DNA of 39,516 nt from a virus, in IMG/VR virus record IMGVR_UViG_3300049855_000314, positions 1 to 39,516 of that record; one strand, given 5' to 3'. Both the position numbers and the translations under genes were made by a program. Numbering within the stretch: position 1 is the stretch's first letter; every line of letters begins with the position of its first letter. The notes below the pieces were generated by a model. That model did no database searches. It saw nothing but the letters and a program-made list of their open reading frames with translations, and had not been told where the DNA came from. Positions 372 through 9,028 of this stretch are shown here, piece by piece.

Positions 372-656
372 ATGAAGAACATTTTTAAACTTGACCATTC
401 CAAAGATTTTGCTGTGTTTACAGTAAAGAATGGCACATATTCTGCAACCACATATAGCAGTAAGAACGATTATTATCAGGATGTCGGCACACTGGGTACC
501 ACACGTGCAGATGCCATGGAATGGGAAAGGCTGTTCGATTACTGCGAAGTGGTACAGACAGAATCAGACTTGAACGATGTGTATCTACATACAAAGAACA
601 GAAGTGCGGTGGATTTAGCTCTAGGCGCTGCCGGGTTTAGCGTTTTCCCTAGTTGA
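372..656 (+). CDS. Hypothetical early protein (94 aa)
   Basis: This is the first gene of the rightward operon, preceded by a GGAGAG ribosome site. The product is small, soluble and rich in Asp, Lys and Tyr, with no membrane segment or motif that I recognise. By position it should be expressed immediately after infection, when small host-takeover proteins are typical of podophages, but no specific function can be assigned. Confidence 0.7.
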   Translation: MKNIFKLDHSKDFAVFTVKNGTYSATTYSSKNDYYQDVGTLGTTRADAMEWERLFDYCEVVQTESDLNDVYLHTKNRSAVDLALGAAGFSVFPS

Positions 657-705: not shown

Positions 706-987
706 ATGAGAGCCTCAATAGAAAACGCAGTAAAAGCGGTAACAAAGCTGTTAAACAGCTTCAAACAACCTCGCAAGAATAGATTTTTAGCAACTTTGGA
801 ACACCAGACAGAAGAGCAGGCAGCAGAGTTAATTGAGCATATAGAAGCAGAAAGGCAGGCATTGAAACATGGAATTCCGATTCCCCAGAGCCTTAGGGAC
901 GCAATCGATAACCTGTCTTCAATGGTAGAAGCTAACGAAAGGGCAATTTCACTATTGACGAGTTTAGAAGCACAGAGGCAACAATAA
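706..987 (+). CDS. Hypothetical early protein, helical (93 aa)
   Basis: A strong AAGGAG site lies 8 bp before the ATG. The protein is predicted to be almost entirely helical, with long Glu/Ala/Gln-rich stretches (residues 30-55 and 65-93) that suggest a coiled coil or helical bundle and a basic N-terminal third. No family is recognised. It directly precedes the ClpP-like gene with a 33-bp gap and probably shares its transcript. Confidence 0.75.
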   Translation: MRASIENAVKAVTKLLNSFKQPRKNRFLATLEHQTEEQAAELIEHIEAERQALKHGIPIPQSLRDAIDNLSSMVEANERAISLLTSLEAQRQQ

Positions 988-1020: not shown

Positions 1021-1572
1021 ATGAAAACTTTTAAAAAATTAGTAACTTCGCTGATACTATCATCATCCGTGTCAGTAGCTGCTCGTACTGTTCTGGTAGA
1101 GCTGCCGCAAGAGATAGATAACGCAAACGAAGTTACTCAGATAGTAAAAGATATAAACGGAGCAGGAAGTTGGGATACTGTAAAGATAGGTATAACTAGC
1201 TTCGGAGGAGACGTAATGCAAGGGTTGCGGATTGTAAACGCCATATCTACCTCCAAAGCTAGAATAGAATGCAATGTAGTGGGCTTCGCAGCCAGCATGG
1301 CAGCAGTTATCGCAACAGCATGTCCGCACATTACGGTAGCCAATGGCAGTACTGTCATGTTCCACCATGCGTTTACTATTGGCCCAGATGGTAAAAAATC
1401 ATTTGAGTTAGATAGAGTGGGGAAAGCTCTAACGTCTGTCGGGGACACTTTAACAAGAAGCGTGTTGCCGCCAGACCTGTTCGATAAAGTAGATAAGGAG
1501 AAAGAAGACGTGTTTATCACAAAGGAGCAATTTCTTAACTTTATGTGCAAATATAGGCACGTATGTAAATAA
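1021..1572 (+). CDS. ClpP-like serine protease with N-terminal signal/anchor
   Basis: This is a serine protease of the ClpP/crotonase fold (S14/SppA-like). Visible motifs are ITSFGGDV (58-65, equivalent to the ClpP SPGG oxyanion region) and GFAASMAA with the presumed nucleophile Ser92. They continue with MFHHAF carrying His115 and KEDVFIT with the presumed Asp163, so the full triad is present in ClpP order and spacing. Residues 1-20 are basic then hydrophobic (KLVTSLILSSSVSVAA) and resemble a signal peptide or membrane anchor. They replace the ClpP axial-loop segment, and the first core strand starts right after. At 183 aa it is near normal ClpP size, but the C-terminus ends early (no YGLVD-type strand). 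It is far from the capsid genes, so a prohead-protease role is unlikely. It heads a cassette with a ClpX-like ATPase. The family is confident; partner and compartment are inference. Confidence 0.88.
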   Translation: MKTFKKLVTSLILSSSVSVAARTVLVELPQEIDNANEVTQIVKDINGAGSWDTVKIGITSFGGDVMQGLRIVNAISTSKARIECNVVGFAASMAAVIATACPHITVANGSTVMFHHAFTIGPDGKKSFELDRVGKALTSVGDTLTRSVLPPDLFDKVDKEKEDVFITKEQFLNFMCKYRHVCK

Positions 1573-1583
1573 AGGGGGATATC

Positions 1584-1742
1584 ATGCCATTATTATTCAT
1601 ATTCTTTATCACTGGATTAGTGTTATTATTATCGGCTACGAAAAACGAACATAATACTTCAGAAGATTGGTGGAATGAGGTACTATTAATGGCAGTCTTT
1701 TTAGTATTTCCAGGTTGCGTTATATATTTAATTAAATGTTAG
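1584..1742 (+). CDS. Small two-helix membrane protein (52 aa)
   Basis: A GGGGG ribosome site lies just before the ATG at 1584, 11 bp after the protease gene. The product has two hydrophobic segments (about residues 2-17 and 34-51) joined by a polar loop containing NEHNTSEDWWNE, as expected for a helical hairpin in the inner membrane. It overlaps the 5' region of the next gene. No homologue is recognised. Its position between the ClpP-like and ClpX-like genes suggests a membrane partner of that system. Confidence 0.65.
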   Translation: MPLLFIFFITGLVLLLSATKNEHNTSEDWWNEVLLMAVFLVFPGCVIYLIKC

Positions 1743-1759
1743 CCATACAGGAGATTGAA

Positions 1760-2035
1760 ATGTGTGCCGCATATTTAACAATCAGTATACTTATTTTTCT
1801 ATTTACATTTACTGCTATTTCACTATTGATTATCTACGTAGGTAGCGGGGAAGTAATTAGTCAGTTTACCAGCAGTTGCCCTAAAGAATGGAGGAGAATA
1901 TCCACCACATATTGGTATGATCCGGATAATGGGCCGTCGTATAAAAAGCCACATTTTCCCCCAAGACGCACAAAATACTACACAGCATTAATTGGCGTAA
2001 ATAGACATCCTCTACCGATTGCGGATGGGGAATAA
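1760..2035 (+). CDS. Single-pass membrane protein (91 aa)
   Basis: I chose the ATG at 1760 because an AGGAG lies 7 bp upstream; an in-frame ATG at 1736 lies inside the previous gene and has no ribosome site. Residues 4-28 form a strong transmembrane segment (TISILIFLFTFTAISLLIIY). About 60 polar, Pro/Arg/Tyr-rich residues follow (KKPHFPPRRTKYYT). No family is recognised. It is the second small membrane gene between the protease and the unfoldase. Confidence 0.65.
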   Translation: MCAAYLTISILIFLFTFTAISLLIIYVGSGEVISQFTSSCPKEWRRISTTYWYDPDNGPSYKKPHFPPRRTKYYTALIGVNRHPLPIADGE

Positions 2036-2078
2036 TAGGAATACAGTGTAACCATCCCGAGACTTCTTGGAGAACGAA

Positions 2079-3083
2079 ATGAATGGCTTACTAGTAAGGT
2101 TTCCATCGTCGTTAGTCGTAGAGAAAAAGGACAGAATCACTCCCCAAACAATGCTCGACCACTTAGACACTGTAGTGATCGGACAAAATGAGGCGAAAAA
2201 GAAACTAGTAGCGGCCACGATGATGCATCTGGTTCGTATGGGAATGCACATAGAGTCTCCAGAGGAGTCTAAACAGGAGTCTTATGAGATACATCGCAAT
2301 CACGTATTACTTACCGGACCCACCGGAGTAGGTAAAACTCTAACTTTAAGGACATTGGCCGAGTACGTCAAGCTCCCGTTCATAGAGCTAGACATGACCA
2401 AGGTAGTGCCGGAGGGATATAGAGGATCTACCATACACGATCTGATGAAAGATGCTATAAAGAACATATCTAGCAAATACTCTACGTCTCTATTGAGCCA
2501 CTCTATCGTATTCATAGATGAAATAGATAAAGCTAGCACTAACGGCACGAATGAGGCAGGTTGGTACGCAAAGATACAGTCCTCGCTACTTAAGTTACTA
2601 GAGGGGCAGGACATAGGCGACGCAGGAGTGTCCTCACACAGAATGATGTTCGTGTTCGGAGGTAACTTTGCAGAATTCAGAAAGAACAAGAAAGAGGCTA
2701 CTAAGAAATCTATAGGGTTTTCAGAGTCCCTAGTCAACCCAGATGCAGCCGAGATGGACGTGCATGAGGGATTAGCTAAATGTGGGATCCTTTTAGAGCT
2801 ATTAGGGCGTATAGCGGTTATTGGCGAATTACAAGAGTTGACCGTCGAGCAATACAGAAAAGTAGTACTGTGCAGCGGGGCCTCCCCGTACCTAGATTAC
2901 TTGAAGACGCTGAAAAGAATAGGCATAGACGCAACATTATCCGAATCTGAAATAGATAGTATTGTGAGCAAGGCTATGAAGAAGAAAACTGGCCTCAGGG
3001 CTCTAGTTTCCATACTATCGGACCACTACATGCCCAGGATATTGAATCACGATTACAGTATAGTTAACCCGAGCAATGCATAA
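2079..3083 (+). CDS. ClpX-like AAA+ protein unfoldase (no zinc-binding domain)
   Basis: This is a 334-aa AAA+ ATPase of the ClpX type. Walker A is GPTGVGKT (80-87), followed by a pore-loop GYRG (113-116, GYVG in ClpX). Walker B is IVFIDEIDK (143-151), and SSLLKLLEG (168-176) matches the ClpX QALLKL segment. Sensor 1 lies at FVFGGN (191-196), an arginine-finger-like LLGRI at 241-245 and sensor 2 at KKTGLRAL (302-309). An IGF tripeptide (212-214) stands where ClpX carries the loop that docks onto ClpP. The N-terminal zinc-binding substrate domain of cellular ClpX is absent. The ATG at 2079 follows GGAG by 6 bp; an upstream TTG at 2067 is less likely. It most likely unfolds proteins for a ClpP, either the phage one at 1021 or that of the host. 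Confidence 0.9.
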   Translation: MNGLLVRFPSSLVVEKKDRITPQTMLDHLDTVVIGQNEAKKKLVAATMMHLVRMGMHIESPEESKQESYEIHRNHVLLTGPTGVGKTLTLRTLAEYVKLPFIELDMTKVVPEGYRGSTIHDLMKDAIKNISSKYSTSLLSHSIVFIDEIDKASTNGTNEAGWYAKIQSSLLKLLEGQDIGDAGVSSHRMMFVFGGNFAEFRKNKKEATKKSIGFSESLVNPDAAEMDVHEGLAKCGILLELLGRIAVIGELQELTVEQYRKVVLCSGASPYLDYLKTLKRIGIDATLSESEIDSIVSKAMKKKTGLRALVSILSDHYMPRILNHDYSIVNPSNA

Positions 3084-3099
3084 AGTTTATTAATAGCTA

Positions 3100-3129
3100 T
3101 TGACTGGCGGAACTCGCGGGATCTAAACT
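3100..3129 (+). promoter_or_regulatory. Weak candidate promoter before the SbmA/BacA-like gene
   Basis: TTGACT, an 18-bp spacer and TAAACT (4 of 6) lie in the 81-bp gap between the ClpX-like and transporter-like genes. The same TAAACT -10 box is seen in the candidate capsid promoter at 32079. It would allow extra expression of the transporter-like gene. Confidence 0.3.
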
Positions 3130-3164
3130 GGCCCCGTGATCTACTAAACCCTGGTGAGAATATC

Positions 3165-4082
3165 ATGAGCAACATTCTGAAGGAACTGAAAAGTAGCACT
3201 ACTAAGCAGAACCGTACCAGAATATTGTTAGGTTGCGCGGTTCTTATAGCTCTGGTAGTACTGGAGATATATGGAACGTACTTGATTCCAGCATGGAGAA
3301 AGGATTTCTACTCCGTGTTGGAAGCCAAGGACGCATCCAGGTTAGTAGGGACATTACAATACTTTACATATGTCATGGCAGCCCTAATATTTAGCCAATC
3401 TCTTAAGTCATATGTAGCAAGACGTACAGCTTTGATTTTGCGCACATCGCTCACTGGAGTACTATTATTTAAATGGAAGAAAGCCCCGCACAGAATGTCA
3501 GTAGATAATCCTAGTCAAAGGATTAACGAAGATTGCAAAATAGCAACTGATATGGCTACCAAGGTTGGCGTAGAAGTACTAATATCAGCCTGTTTAGTAG
3601 TAATGTTGATTGCAGAATCTAGCCATAATATGTTATTAGTAGGATCTGCAGTAGGATATACAGTTCTAGTAAGTCTTTTGGCCATACTATTTAGAAAACC
3701 ACTAATAAATACTGAGATAAATACTCAGAAAGCTGAGGCGGACCACAGACAAGTATTAAGCGGAATAGCATTAGGCATAGATTCAGAAGAGGCCCCTAGC
3801 AGGTATGAAGAGATACTCATTACCACTAAAAAGTATCTTAGAACCCTACTTGGATATACAGTATTTAGTTCTGTGCAAGGTCAATTCTCTATACTAGTAC
3901 CGTGGGCAGTATTATCTATACCGTATTTTCAAGGCCACATGTCTTTAGGAGACTTCATGTCCGGGGTAGCCATTTTTGAGTTGATAGTAGTTAACTCAAC
4001 CATACTCATATCGTTATTTCCAGAGGTAACGAAAGCTCAAGCATCATGGATAAGAATTCGGGAGTTTTATTCAGTACTTTAA
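3165..4082 (+). CDS. SbmA/BacA-like peptide transporter membrane domain
   Basis: This polytopic inner-membrane protein belongs to the SbmA/BacA-YddA (ABC_membrane_2) family. Diagnostic stretches are WRKDFYSVLEAKD (44-56) and NPSQRINED (115-123), matching the family's RDFYDAL..KD and NPDQRIxED signatures. The C-terminal LGDFMSGVAIFELI (261-274) and FPEVTKAQASWIRI (285-298) follow the family pattern. Hydrophobic segments lie near 18-42, 64-82, 134-151, 156-176, 241-256 and 264-285. There is no nucleotide-binding domain, as in proton-driven SbmA, which imports antimicrobial peptides. At 305 aa it is about 100 aa shorter than SbmA. An inner-membrane carrier of this family is very unusual in a phage; a role in peptide uptake, peptide disposal or exclusion is inference. 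Confidence 0.8.
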   Translation: MSNILKELKSSTTKQNRTRILLGCAVLIALVVLEIYGTYLIPAWRKDFYSVLEAKDASRLVGTLQYFTYVMAALIFSQSLKSYVARRTALILRTSLTGVLLFKWKKAPHRMSVDNPSQRINEDCKIATDMATKVGVEVLISACLVVMLIAESSHNMLLVGSAVGYTVLVSLLAILFRKPLINTEINTQKAEADHRQVLSGIALGIDSEEAPSRYEEILITTKKYLRTLLGYTVFSSVQGQFSILVPWAVLSIPYFQGHMSLGDFMSGVAIFELIVVNSTILISLFPEVTKAQASWIRIREFYSVL

Positions 4083-4094
4083 AGGAGAGTTAAA

Positions 4095-4313
4095 GTGGAC
4101 ATTGCAGAACAAATTATTATCAGGCCTTTATTGAAGTATTTAAAGGAACAAGAGGCTAGGGCCATAGACGAAGAGCTATCTTTAGACAAGTATTACGAAT
4201 ATGAACAAGAGCGCATATCTGACCTGATGATGGAGGAATACGAAGCAGCGTTCGGTCAAGACATACAGGACCTGAAAGGCGATATAGAAGGAGACCTAGA
4301 TGAAGACATATAG
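4095..4313 (+). CDS. Small acidic hypothetical protein (72 aa)
   Basis: It starts with GTG preceded by AAAGGAG and ends overlapping the next gene by 14 bp. The protein is helical and very acidic, especially at the end (DIQDLKGDIEGDLDEDI). No family is recognised. The negative charge would fit a DNA-mimic or inhibitor role, but there is no direct evidence. Confidence 0.65.
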   Translation: MDIAEQIIIRPLLKYLKEQEARAIDEELSLDKYYEYEQERISDLMMEEYEAAFGQDIQDLKGDIEGDLDEDI

Positions 4314-4647
4314 CACCGGAGCTAAAAAGGACGTACAGGGGAAGCTCCCGTATCATCTAATCCCTAAGGAGGCTATGGACTCGATGGCAGCAGGCCTGCA
4401 ATGTGGCACAACTAAAGGGTACGATGCACATAACTGGCAAGGAGGCCTCCCATATATGGAAGTTCACGTTGCCGCACTGTTACGACACCTGTATAAATGG
4501 ATAGGAGGAGAGGAAGATAATATAGAGATTAATGCAGAGGGTAAAGAATTTGCAACACACCACCTTGACAACGCAATGGCCCACATGGTAATGTTAGTTA
4601 CACAGGTGAGGAGAAATAGAACTGATTTAGACGACAGGTATAAATGA
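4300..4647 (+). CDS. dATP/dGTP diphosphohydrolase N-terminal-domain-like protein (DUF5664 type)
   Basis: This 115-aa protein has the pattern of the phage family annotated as dATP/dGTP diphosphohydrolase N-terminal domain. GKLPYHLIPKEAMDSMA (14-30) corresponds to the 'GKPRYDLIPPxALxxxA' opening. It continues with a KGYDAHNWQGG region (39-49) and HVAALLRHLYKWIGGE (57-72), then ATHHLDNAMAHMVML (85-99). Members are presumed all-helical nucleotide-processing enzymes that act on dNTP pools during phage replication. It is translationally coupled to both neighbours (14-bp overlap upstream, ATGA overlap downstream). Confidence 0.7.
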   Translation: MKTYSTGAKKDVQGKLPYHLIPKEAMDSMAAGLQCGTTKGYDAHNWQGGLPYMEVHVAALLRHLYKWIGGEEDNIEINAEGKEFATHHLDNAMAHMVMLVTQVRRNRTDLDDRYK

Positions 4648-6794: not shown

Positions 6795-8822
6795 ATGTTT
6801 GCGATAGACTTCGAAACATATTTAATATCTTCCAACACACCTGCACCAAAACCAGTTTGTGTCTCTTGGTATGACGGAAAAAAGTCCGGCCTAGTCAGAG
6901 GGGCGGACATGTCAAATTTCCTCAAAGAAACTCTGCAACGCCCTTTAGTAATAGCCCACAATATGAAGTTCGAGTTAGCAGTCATATACGAGTGGTTCCC
7001 AACGTTACGATCTGCAATAGATAAAGCGCTAGATGAAGAGAGACTCATGTGCTCTAAGATAAATGAGCAACTATTAGATTGTTTTCGCAAGACTCCAGTA
7101 AAGGCGTACTCGTTGGCCGATGCCGTATTGTCGTATTTCAAGACGGACATCTCCGATTCCAAGACTGACCCAAATGCCTGGAGATTACGGTATAGCGAAC
7201 TGGATGGAGTGGAAGACTGGCCGCAAGCAGCAATAGATTACGCTATAAGTGACTCCATATGGGCATACAAAGTCGCCGAGTTACAGATACCGACCCTACA
7301 AGGGGTAGACATGTTTGGGCCAGTTAGAGCAGAACACTACCTAAACGATACAGGGATGTATGGGCTAAGGGTAGACCAAGATAGGGTCAGCTTGCTAGAA
7401 GACGAGATCCTAGAAAAATTAGCCGCCCCCAGGGACGCGTTGATATCGTACGGTATGATGACCTTAGGCAAAAACGGGAAATACAAAAAGAAGAGTAAGG
7501 CATTTAGGGAATATATAGAGCAAACTATCCCAAAAGATGCAATATTGTTTACTGCAAAAGGAGGAGTATCTACATCTGCGGAAAGTATAGAAAAATACAA
7601 CACTGAAAATAACCCAATCTTCACTAACTATTTAGTCCTAATGGAATACGACAAGGTACTGTCTTCCTTTGTCTCCAGATTACGTCAAGCCGACCCATAT
7701 ATTAGAACTGAGTATAACGGGATAGTAAAGACTGGGAGGTCTTCTAGTAGAACATCTGATTTATTCCCATCAGTTAATATCCAACAGATGCCTAGAAAGG
7801 TTAGAGACGTAACGTATGATGTTAGAAATTGTTATATACCTAGAGATGGATATAAGATATGTAGCATAGACTATTCAGGGCTAGAGTTAATCTCAGCAGC
7901 ATATCAATTGGGTAATTATTACGGTAGCTCTAAATTAAAGGATACCATGAATTCTGGCACAAAGCCTATGGATATGCACAGCCTGTTGGCACATAGGATC
8001 ATGACCATGAAATCAGGTAAGATCGTAACGTATGACGATTTCGTAAAGAACAAAAAGGTAGACGAGTATGCTGTAATGCGCCAAATAACCAAGGCTGTAA
8101 ATTTGGGAATTCCAGGAGGGTTGGGGTACAAGACCATGAGATCTCAGCTCCTGAAAGAAGGGGTAGTAACTAAGTATAAGGTTATATCTACCGCCCCATA
8201 TGAAAGCACCATTCGTCACGACTTACGTAAATTCAAAGGTGACATCCCTAACCTAAGATGTGAACGCACTGGAAGGTACTCATATAGTTTAGTTTACGAC
8301 GAGTTAGTCACTTTAAAGGAAGAATTATTCGCTTTGTATCCAGAGATGGGAACGTTCTTACGAGAAGACCATCTAGAATTCACCACAGGGGAAAAGAAAC
8401 GTGTAAAGAATGATTTCGGCGAATGGGAATGGGAAGACATGTATGCCTATCAAGTAGGCGGATTTAAAAGGAGCTACTGTACGTACACTGAATTTTGCAA
8501 CGGGTTCCTTATGCAGTCCCCCTCAGCAGTAGGTGCCAAAAGGGCCATGGCCAATACTGTAAAGAAGTATCGAGCAGGAGATGAAGTCAAGTGTTTAGCG
8601 TTCATTCACGATGAAATAGTATTCGAAGTTAAGGATTGTGCAAGGATGCTCGATCTAGTTAAAGATGTCGCATATATAATGATAGATTCCATGCAGGAAA
8701 CCTTACCCGGAATAAGGGTAGCAGTCGAAGCAGACGTAATGGACTATTGGAAGAAGTCTGGAGGGTTCCACGTAGAGACGTTCTTCAAGGATCCTATAGA
8801 AAATAAGAAGGTGCAATCGTGA
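6795..8822 (+). CDS. Family A DNA polymerase with 3'-5' exonuclease domain
   Basis: This 675-aa replicative polymerase has an N-terminal DEDDy exonuclease (residues 1-165). Exo I is AIDFET with D5 and E7. Exo II is HNMKFE with Glu60 where Asp is usual, and Exo III is YAISD with Y149 and D153. The polymerase core shows motif A DYSGLEL (359-365) and motif B RQITKAVNLGIPGGLGY (429-445). Motif C is HDEIVFEV (605-612). In motif B the residue equivalent to E. coli Phe762 / T7 Tyr526 is Leu437. Studies of viral PolA link Leu at this site to slower, more accurate polymerases and often temperate or slow lifestyles. GGAGAG precedes the ATG. No helicase or primase gene is present, so host factors are probably used. 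Confidence 0.95.
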   Translation: MFAIDFETYLISSNTPAPKPVCVSWYDGKKSGLVRGADMSNFLKETLQRPLVIAHNMKFELAVIYEWFPTLRSAIDKALDEERLMCSKINEQLLDCFRKTPVKAYSLADAVLSYFKTDISDSKTDPNAWRLRYSELDGVEDWPQAAIDYAISDSIWAYKVAELQIPTLQGVDMFGPVRAEHYLNDTGMYGLRVDQDRVSLLEDEILEKLAAPRDALISYGMMTLGKNGKYKKKSKAFREYIEQTIPKDAILFTAKGGVSTSAESIEKYNTENNPIFTNYLVLMEYDKVLSSFVSRLRQADPYIRTEYNGIVKTGRSSSRTSDLFPSVNIQQMPRKVRDVTYDVRNCYIPRDGYKICSIDYSGLELISAAYQLGNYYGSSKLKDTMNSGTKPMDMHSLLAHRIMTMKSGKIVTYDDFVKNKKVDEYAVMRQITKAVNLGIPGGLGYKTMRSQLLKEGVVTKYKVISTAPYESTIRHDLRKFKGDIPNLRCERTGRYSYSLVYDELVTLKEELFALYPEMGTFLREDHLEFTTGEKKRVKNDFGEWEWEDMYAYQVGGFKRSYCTYTEFCNGFLMQSPSAVGAKRAMANTVKKYRAGDEVKCLAFIHDEIVFEVKDCARMLDLVKDVAYIMIDSMQETLPGIRVAVEADVMDYWKKSGGFHVETFFKDPIENKKVQS

Positions 8823-9028
8823 TTCGTTGGGTAGGGACCGCATTATGTATGATAGGGATGGCATTAACGTCTCTAAATATATACCCTTATAATCTTTATT
8901 TCTCTTGCATTGGCAGTCTATTATGGTGTATAACAGCCATTAGATGGAACGATAACGCATTAGCAATCGTAGAAGCAGCAGCCGTAGTGATCTATATAGT
9001 AGGGATATTAAGATTCATATTATTTTAA
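8819..9028 (+). CDS. Small membrane protein (69 aa; DUF6552/YgjV-like layout)
   Basis: It starts with GTG overlapping the polymerase stop. The protein has about three hydrophobic segments (residues 4-20, 27-43, 48-67), with the pattern W-G...LNIYPYNLYF..GSLLW...IRWND..L...AAAV. Phage and bacterial small membrane proteins of the PnuC/YgjV-like DUF6552 kind share this layout. Function unknown. Confidence 0.6.
   Translation: MIRWVGTALCMIGMALTSLNIYPYNLYFSCIGSLLWCITAIRWNDNALAIVEAAAVVIYIVGILRFILF

Follow-up and report, generated by a model that had tools for sequence, protein, structure and literature searches.

A phage gene cassette with a predicted exported ClpP-like peptidase, a ClpX-type unfoldase and an SbmA/YddA-like membrane protein

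The virus record IMGVR_UViG_3300049855_000314 of IMG/VR, analysed here over its full length of 39.5 kb (39,516 nucleotides, called the window; the record has no completeness estimate), represents a small environmental phage and carries at positions 1021–4082 a cassette of five genes, among them genes for a ClpP-like protein, a ClpX-like ATPase and a membrane protein related to SbmA and YddA. The cassette probably combines an exported ClpP-fold peptidase with a cytosolic unfoldase that serves canonical ClpP, plus the membrane protein, a set most likely used to remodel host proteins at an early stage of infection. This reading builds on what the sequences show (homology and predicted fold, the catalytic triad and other motifs, the export segments, and gene order and its conservation), and from these we infer the location, partners and activity of the proteins.

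Along these lines, the ClpP-like protein would leave the cytoplasm by the Sec pathway, shed its signal peptide and act as a mature ClpP-fold serine peptidase in the periplasm or at the outer face of the inner membrane, where, working without ClpX, it would be limited to peptides or unfolded, exposed segments as substrates. The ClpX-like ATPase would remain cytoplasmic and unfold proteins for a canonical ClpP reached via IGF/MGF loops, which would be the host's enzyme in the window phage and the phage's own in relatives such as the contig L026. The SbmA/YddA-like protein would sit in the inner membrane and may move peptides or peptide-borne cargo. The most likely use of the whole would be early-infection remodelling of host proteins, and the cassette is taken to be early from its position ahead of the replication genes.

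Fold, triad and export signal of the ClpP-like protein

The ClpP-like protein matches Pfam CLP_protease (6e-11; 43 bits against a cut-off of 20.2), and its structure model is confident apart from residues 1–20 (predicted local distance difference test, pLDDT, 90). Compared as a monomer model with ClpP chains, it shows the ClpP fold, with Z about 19 over 149 residues and a root mean square deviation of 2.6–2.7. The triad Ser92-His115-Asp163, already proposed in an earlier note on this DNA, aligns with S97, H122 and D171 of E. coli ClpP and is invariant in an alignment of the exported homologues (7/7), which confirms a ClpP-like protease with a complete catalytic order. Two cysteines that flank the nucleophile, Cys84 and Cys101, are invariant in the window, in the relative L001 and in both copies of the relative L006. 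In the latter, the exported ClpP-like paralogues lie in tandem (L006:1976-3581), and both carry the triad while a second cysteine pair occurs in one alone.

A feature overlooked in the earlier note is a Sec-type signal peptide at the N-terminus, which has three lysines, a hydrophobic stretch free of charged residues and a cleavage site of the small-x-small type. Export signals were called by a plain sequence rule. Every one of the five ClpP-like proteins of the lineage passed it, as did 3 of the 47 window genes and 92 of 928 background open reading frames (ORFs). None of 12 other phage ClpP-like proteins passed (T5-like, KVP40-like, Schitoviridae, Limnohabitans, Otagovirus, Acinetobacter and two head proteases), nor did any canonical ClpP. 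The N-terminal sequence thus points to a non-cytosolic protein. In a tree of 27 ClpP-like proteins, a single origin of export was neither shown nor rejected (approximately unbiased test, p-AU 0.21).

The proposal that this ClpP binds this ClpX is contradicted by several features. Residue 22 of the model aligns with ClpP residue 25, and the residues before it form the signal peptide, so that the predicted mature protein would be devoid of the N-terminal axial loops that make up the pore gate of ClpP. The pocket for the IGF loop is not kept either, as the E. coli residues Y60, Y62, F82, I90, M92, F112, L114 and L189 correspond to K, G, T, N, V, gap, A and gap, respectively. The export signal, the absent loops and the absent pocket each give a separate ground for doubting the pairing. 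In the canonical ClpP proteins of L026 and of a further locus, L073, the hydrophobic pocket is largely kept, and these are a more natural ClpX partner than the ClpP-like protein.

The ClpX-like ATPase and the membrane protein

Of the two possible starts of the ClpX-like gene, at 2067 and 2079, the latter, an ATG preceded by a GGAG ribosome site, is the better one. The protein matches Pfam AAA (4e-16) and AAA_2 (1e-14) and aligns with E. coli ClpX across the whole AAA+ module (7e-41), and it stays under the curated NCBIfam ClpX cut-off (146 bits vs 359). It retains both Walker motifs, the arginine finger, sensor 2 and the IGF/MGF tripeptide, and these are conserved in four relatives. The ClpP-docking tripeptide at the ClpX position reads IGF in the window and L001 and MGF in L006 and L026, so the description as a ClpX-type ATPase with an IGF loop was correct. 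The N-terminal C4 zinc-binding domain is absent from the ClpX-like proteins of the window, L001, L006 and L026, and because it is missing, these proteins probably select substrates other than those of host ClpX. Their docking partner is probably a canonical ClpP, the phage's own in L026 and L073 and, since these two have a canonical ClpP beside or near ClpX, the host's elsewhere. In L026 the canonical ClpP (1e-86 to CLP_protease) overlaps the end of ClpX, the two genes sharing a single base between end and start (L026:2481-4057), a compact ClpXP pair on a small phage contig.

The membrane protein has 305 amino acids and ends after the transmembrane domain without an ATPase domain, as do its homologues in L001 (61% identity) and L006 (46%). 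It had been assigned to the SbmA/BacA family, and this holds in part: the match to Pfam SbmA_BacA is above the cut-off (2e-9; 37.5 bits vs 24), but ABC_membrane_2, also above its cut-off, scores higher (2e-11), and profile alignment with hhalign places the protein nearer YddA (8e-15, probability 98%) than SbmA (7e-7). The structure model is of moderate quality (pLDDT 75; predicted template modelling score, pTM, 0.58). By fold it is most similar to ABCD4 and further ABC transmembrane domains, closely followed by SbmA, and the best matches among solved structures are Rv1819c (2e-5) and ABCD4. In YddA, the ABCD proteins and Rv1819c, the homologous transmembrane domain is followed by an ATPase domain in the same chain, which the phage protein lacks. 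The absence of an ATPase domain is shared with SbmA/BacA (SLiPT), whose helix TM0 is missing here, the alignment starting only at SbmA residue 88. The glutamate ladder of SbmA comprises E193, E203, E269, E276, E287 and E378 (PMC13316013). Three of the six are kept in the phage protein (E193, E269 and E276) and equivalents of E203, E287 and E378 are missing, the position of E378 being uncertain by a few residues. With an incomplete ladder and no ATPase domain, no energy source is evident; movement of peptides across the membrane by this protein is possible. Pattern scans, which reach close relatives only, gave no match for the gene in 50,697 phage records and none that was confirmed in GTDB genomes.

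Gene order, relatives and other phage ClpX loci

Relatives were collected from IMG/VR by a ClpX scan and two-sequence alignments, followed by a three-sequence DNA polymerase alignment and a ClpX alignment; single-sequence IMG/VR scans that started from the ClpP-like or the SbmA-like protein brought up no relative. Three relatives belong to the same lineage, the DNA polymerase reaching 63% for its best segment in L001, 51% in L006 and 49% in L026. Two other candidates, L008 and L009, were rejected as they carry ordinary head-region ClpP genes. The window, L001 and L006 share the order ClpP-like (a tandem pair in L006), ClpX, SbmA-like, dGTP-hydrolase-type gene, single-stranded DNA-binding gene and polymerase. 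In L026 the ClpP-like gene and ClpX are separated by 11 bases, and an SbmA-like gene is absent from its 16 kb. The five co-directional genes described earlier are all present, and their proposed co-occurrence was recovered for three of them: two diverged relatives have the ClpP-like, ClpX-like and SbmA-like genes, again in this order, and the grouping is therefore not random, whereas the small membrane proteins do not recur. Homologues of the two small ORFs at 1584–1742 and 1736–2035 are found in none of L001, L006 and L026, and because they are not conserved they probably stand outside the system. The membrane protein is an uncertain member of the system, being absent from loci that keep the ClpP-like and ClpX genes.

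A wider scan of phage ClpX genes yielded 80 loci, in which the zinc domain was scored by pattern. The pattern is present at the ClpX N-terminus in 72 loci, some with a canonical ClpP and none with an exported ClpP-like protein. Among the remaining eight, five have a ClpP-like gene whose product has a hydrophobic N-terminus. One of these, L073, combines an exported ClpP-like protein and a zinc-less ClpX with a separate canonical ClpP; by BLAST it has only ClpX in common with the window, so the pairing is not merely due to common descent of one small genome. The same pairing occurs in L076, which has terminase, portal, lysozyme and exonuclease in common with the window, though at low identity, and there the ClpP-like protein may be a lipoprotein as judged by eye. 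A Fisher test on the association (2e-6) was post hoc and involved five loci of which three are related, and it is not used as support. An SbmA-like gene was not found in the available DNA of L026, L073 and L076, all of which have the exported ClpP-like gene. On the minus strand of L076 (4339-5587), a peptide deformylase gene (5e-29) overlaps the membrane-anchored ClpP-like gene.

Features of the window are listed in the table. Downstream of the cassette lie genes matching a single-stranded DNA-binding protein, DNA polymerase A, a RecE-like exonuclease and a polymerase exonuclease subunit. The diphosphohydrolase domain at 4300–4647 is kept 3' of the SbmA-like gene in the window, L001 and L006, and the DUF6552 protein has a homologue in L006 (L006:5818-6123) between ClpX and the SbmA-like gene. 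At other places of the lineage, an MPTase-PolyVal zincin metallopeptidase (4e-26) is encoded between ClpX and the SbmA-like gene (L001:10942-11499), and L006:8317-8883 resembles, by eye, an HslV/proteasome-type Ntn hydrolase with no Pfam match. Rfam gave no match, and promoter and terminator scans gave a signal no better than that of shuffled sequences.

Table. Features in and around the cassette, in window coordinates
Feature	Position	Strand	Basis or remark
Small ORF	372–656	+	tblastn 34% over 91 amino acids to L001:7908-8186, equivalent position; part of conserved gene block
Small ORF	706–987	+	tblastn 42% to L001:8208-8423, equivalent position in L001
ClpP-like serine peptidase, predicted exported form	1021–1572	+	Pfam CLP_protease, triad, structure model
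Predicted Sec signal peptide of ClpP-like protein, MKTFKKLVTSLILSSSVSVAA	1021–1083	+	cleavage after residue 20 or 21
Codon of Cys84	1270–1272		
Codon of Ser92	1294–1296		triad
Codon of Cys101	1321–1323		
Codon of His115	1363–1365		triad
Codon of Asp163	1507–1509		triad
Small membrane protein	1584–1742	+	hydrophobic by eye
Small protein, hydrophobic N-terminus	1736–2035	+	
ClpX-type AAA+ unfoldase without N-terminal zinc domain	2079–3083	+	E. coli ClpX 7e-41
Walker A	2316–2339		
Walker B	about 2505–2522		
IGF loop	2712–2720		
Stand-alone ABC-type transmembrane domain, SbmA/YddA/ABCD superfamily, without ATPase domain	3165–4082	+	Pfam
dATP/dGTP diphosphohydrolase N-terminal domain	4300–4647		2e-17
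DUF6552 small membrane protein	8819–9025		

Alternative explanations and possible role

Several other explanations have to be weighed. The phage ClpX and the ClpP-like protein could form one cytoplasmic ClpXP machine whose products are moved by the SbmA-like protein, as adjacent genes in an order kept in L001, L006 and L026 and an intact triad and IGF loop would suggest. The export signals on the ClpP-like proteins, the missing axial loops and IGF pocket and the separate canonical ClpP of L026 and L073 speak against it, and such a machine is very improbable. It is rather unlikely, though to be taken more seriously, that the genes are unrelated early genes with no common function, kept in order since small phage genomes keep order; the trio diverges at about the pace of the DNA polymerase of the same genomes, and the SbmA-like gene is missing in L026. 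However, intervening genes have been replaced while the trio stayed, and the exported ClpP-like protein and zinc-less ClpX are found again in L073 despite its sharing only ClpX with the window.

A coupling of periplasmic proteolysis to import by the YddA/SbmA-type protein, in the manner of Fus/PqqL and with ClpX as a separate neighbour, is improbable as well. Fus systems couple a periplasmic protease to import, and an exported protease gene lies near a YddA-type gene here as in E. coli yddA-yddB-pqqL and Fus (PMC6793856); the YddA transmembrane domain is also the closest match of the membrane protein. Yet three loci have the exported protease with no SbmA-like gene in the available DNA, and the transporter has no evident energy source. 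In addition, Fus/PqqL use an M16 metalloprotease and a TonB-dependent receptor, whereas the phage has a ClpP-fold serine peptidase; neither a receptor nor an M16 protease was recognised among the ORFs examined, in which no search was aimed at them. The resemblance, a periplasmic protease with an inner-membrane transporter, is one of composition and not of membership. Least probable is a role of the ClpP-like protein as a prohead protease or lysis-related factor. Head maturation proteases are its top matches in PHROG and NCBIfam, T5-like ClpP genes adjoin holin and endolysin and the gene of Acinetobacter TaPaz adjoins Rz, but the protein reaches 73.5 bits, far under the 120-bit head-protease cut-off, and has an export signal. 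The capsid genes, moreover, lie at 30.8–37.3 kb on the opposite strand, about 30 kb away, and gene position and export signal together led us to reject the prohead protease.

Some points also weigh against proteolysis in two compartments as favoured here. The signal rule is simple and about 10% of background ORFs pass it; the ClpP-like proteins of L073 and L076 fail its strict form though their N-termini are hydrophobic; and the pocket residues were taken from a low-identity alignment. A periplasm exists only if the host is Gram-negative, and the function and expression of the proteins are putative. A more far-reaching version is improbable: the exported peptidase might cleave selected host membrane proteins on their outer side, ClpX with canonical ClpP might draw in and degrade the cytosolic portion, and the SbmA/YddA-like protein might clear the peptides. 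The processing of RseA by DegS, RseP and ClpXP offers a parallel for such two-sided proteolysis.

Bacterial ClpP (S14) and ClpXP share the fold, the triad, the ClpX AAA+ motifs and the IGF loop with the phage proteins, which differ by the absent axial loops, pocket and zinc domain. SppA and the periplasmic ClpP-fold peptidases belong to the same clan and are exported or membrane-anchored, and SppA matches are weak (4e-8 for L001). SppA works with a Ser-Lys dyad, the phage protein carrying Ser-His-Asp instead. The earlier view that ClpP-like genes of phages are usually found with capsid genes holds only in part, as T5-like, KVP40-like, Schitoviridae and other phages carry non-structural ones. 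These proteases (PHROG 1827; also Otagovirus) resemble the window protein in fold, triad and non-capsid location, but the ones tested lack an export signal, and the stretches examined have no annotated ClpX neighbour. Jumbo phages supply ClpX, often with a canonical ClpP (PMC7824862), and resemble the window phage in encoding ClpX; their ClpX mostly keeps the zinc domain and has no exported ClpP-like neighbour.

Phages with ClpX, with ClpP-like genes away from the capsid module or with both are already known or present in public records (PMC7824862). A literature search, with many subscription papers outside it, came upon no report of an exported ClpP encoded by a phage, a phage SbmA, tandem exported ClpP-like copies or a pairing of the exported form with a zinc-domain-less ClpX. 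Phage ClpP-like proteins are read as head proteases or ClpXP parts. An exported, triad-bearing form, seen with a zinc-domain-less ClpX in at least two or three lineages of phages, would act as a phage protease outside the cytoplasm. If this is true, the exported protease would be able to reach receptors of the host, sensors of envelope stress and rival phages on their way in. The cassette hints at a set of phage tools directed against proteins on either side of the membrane.

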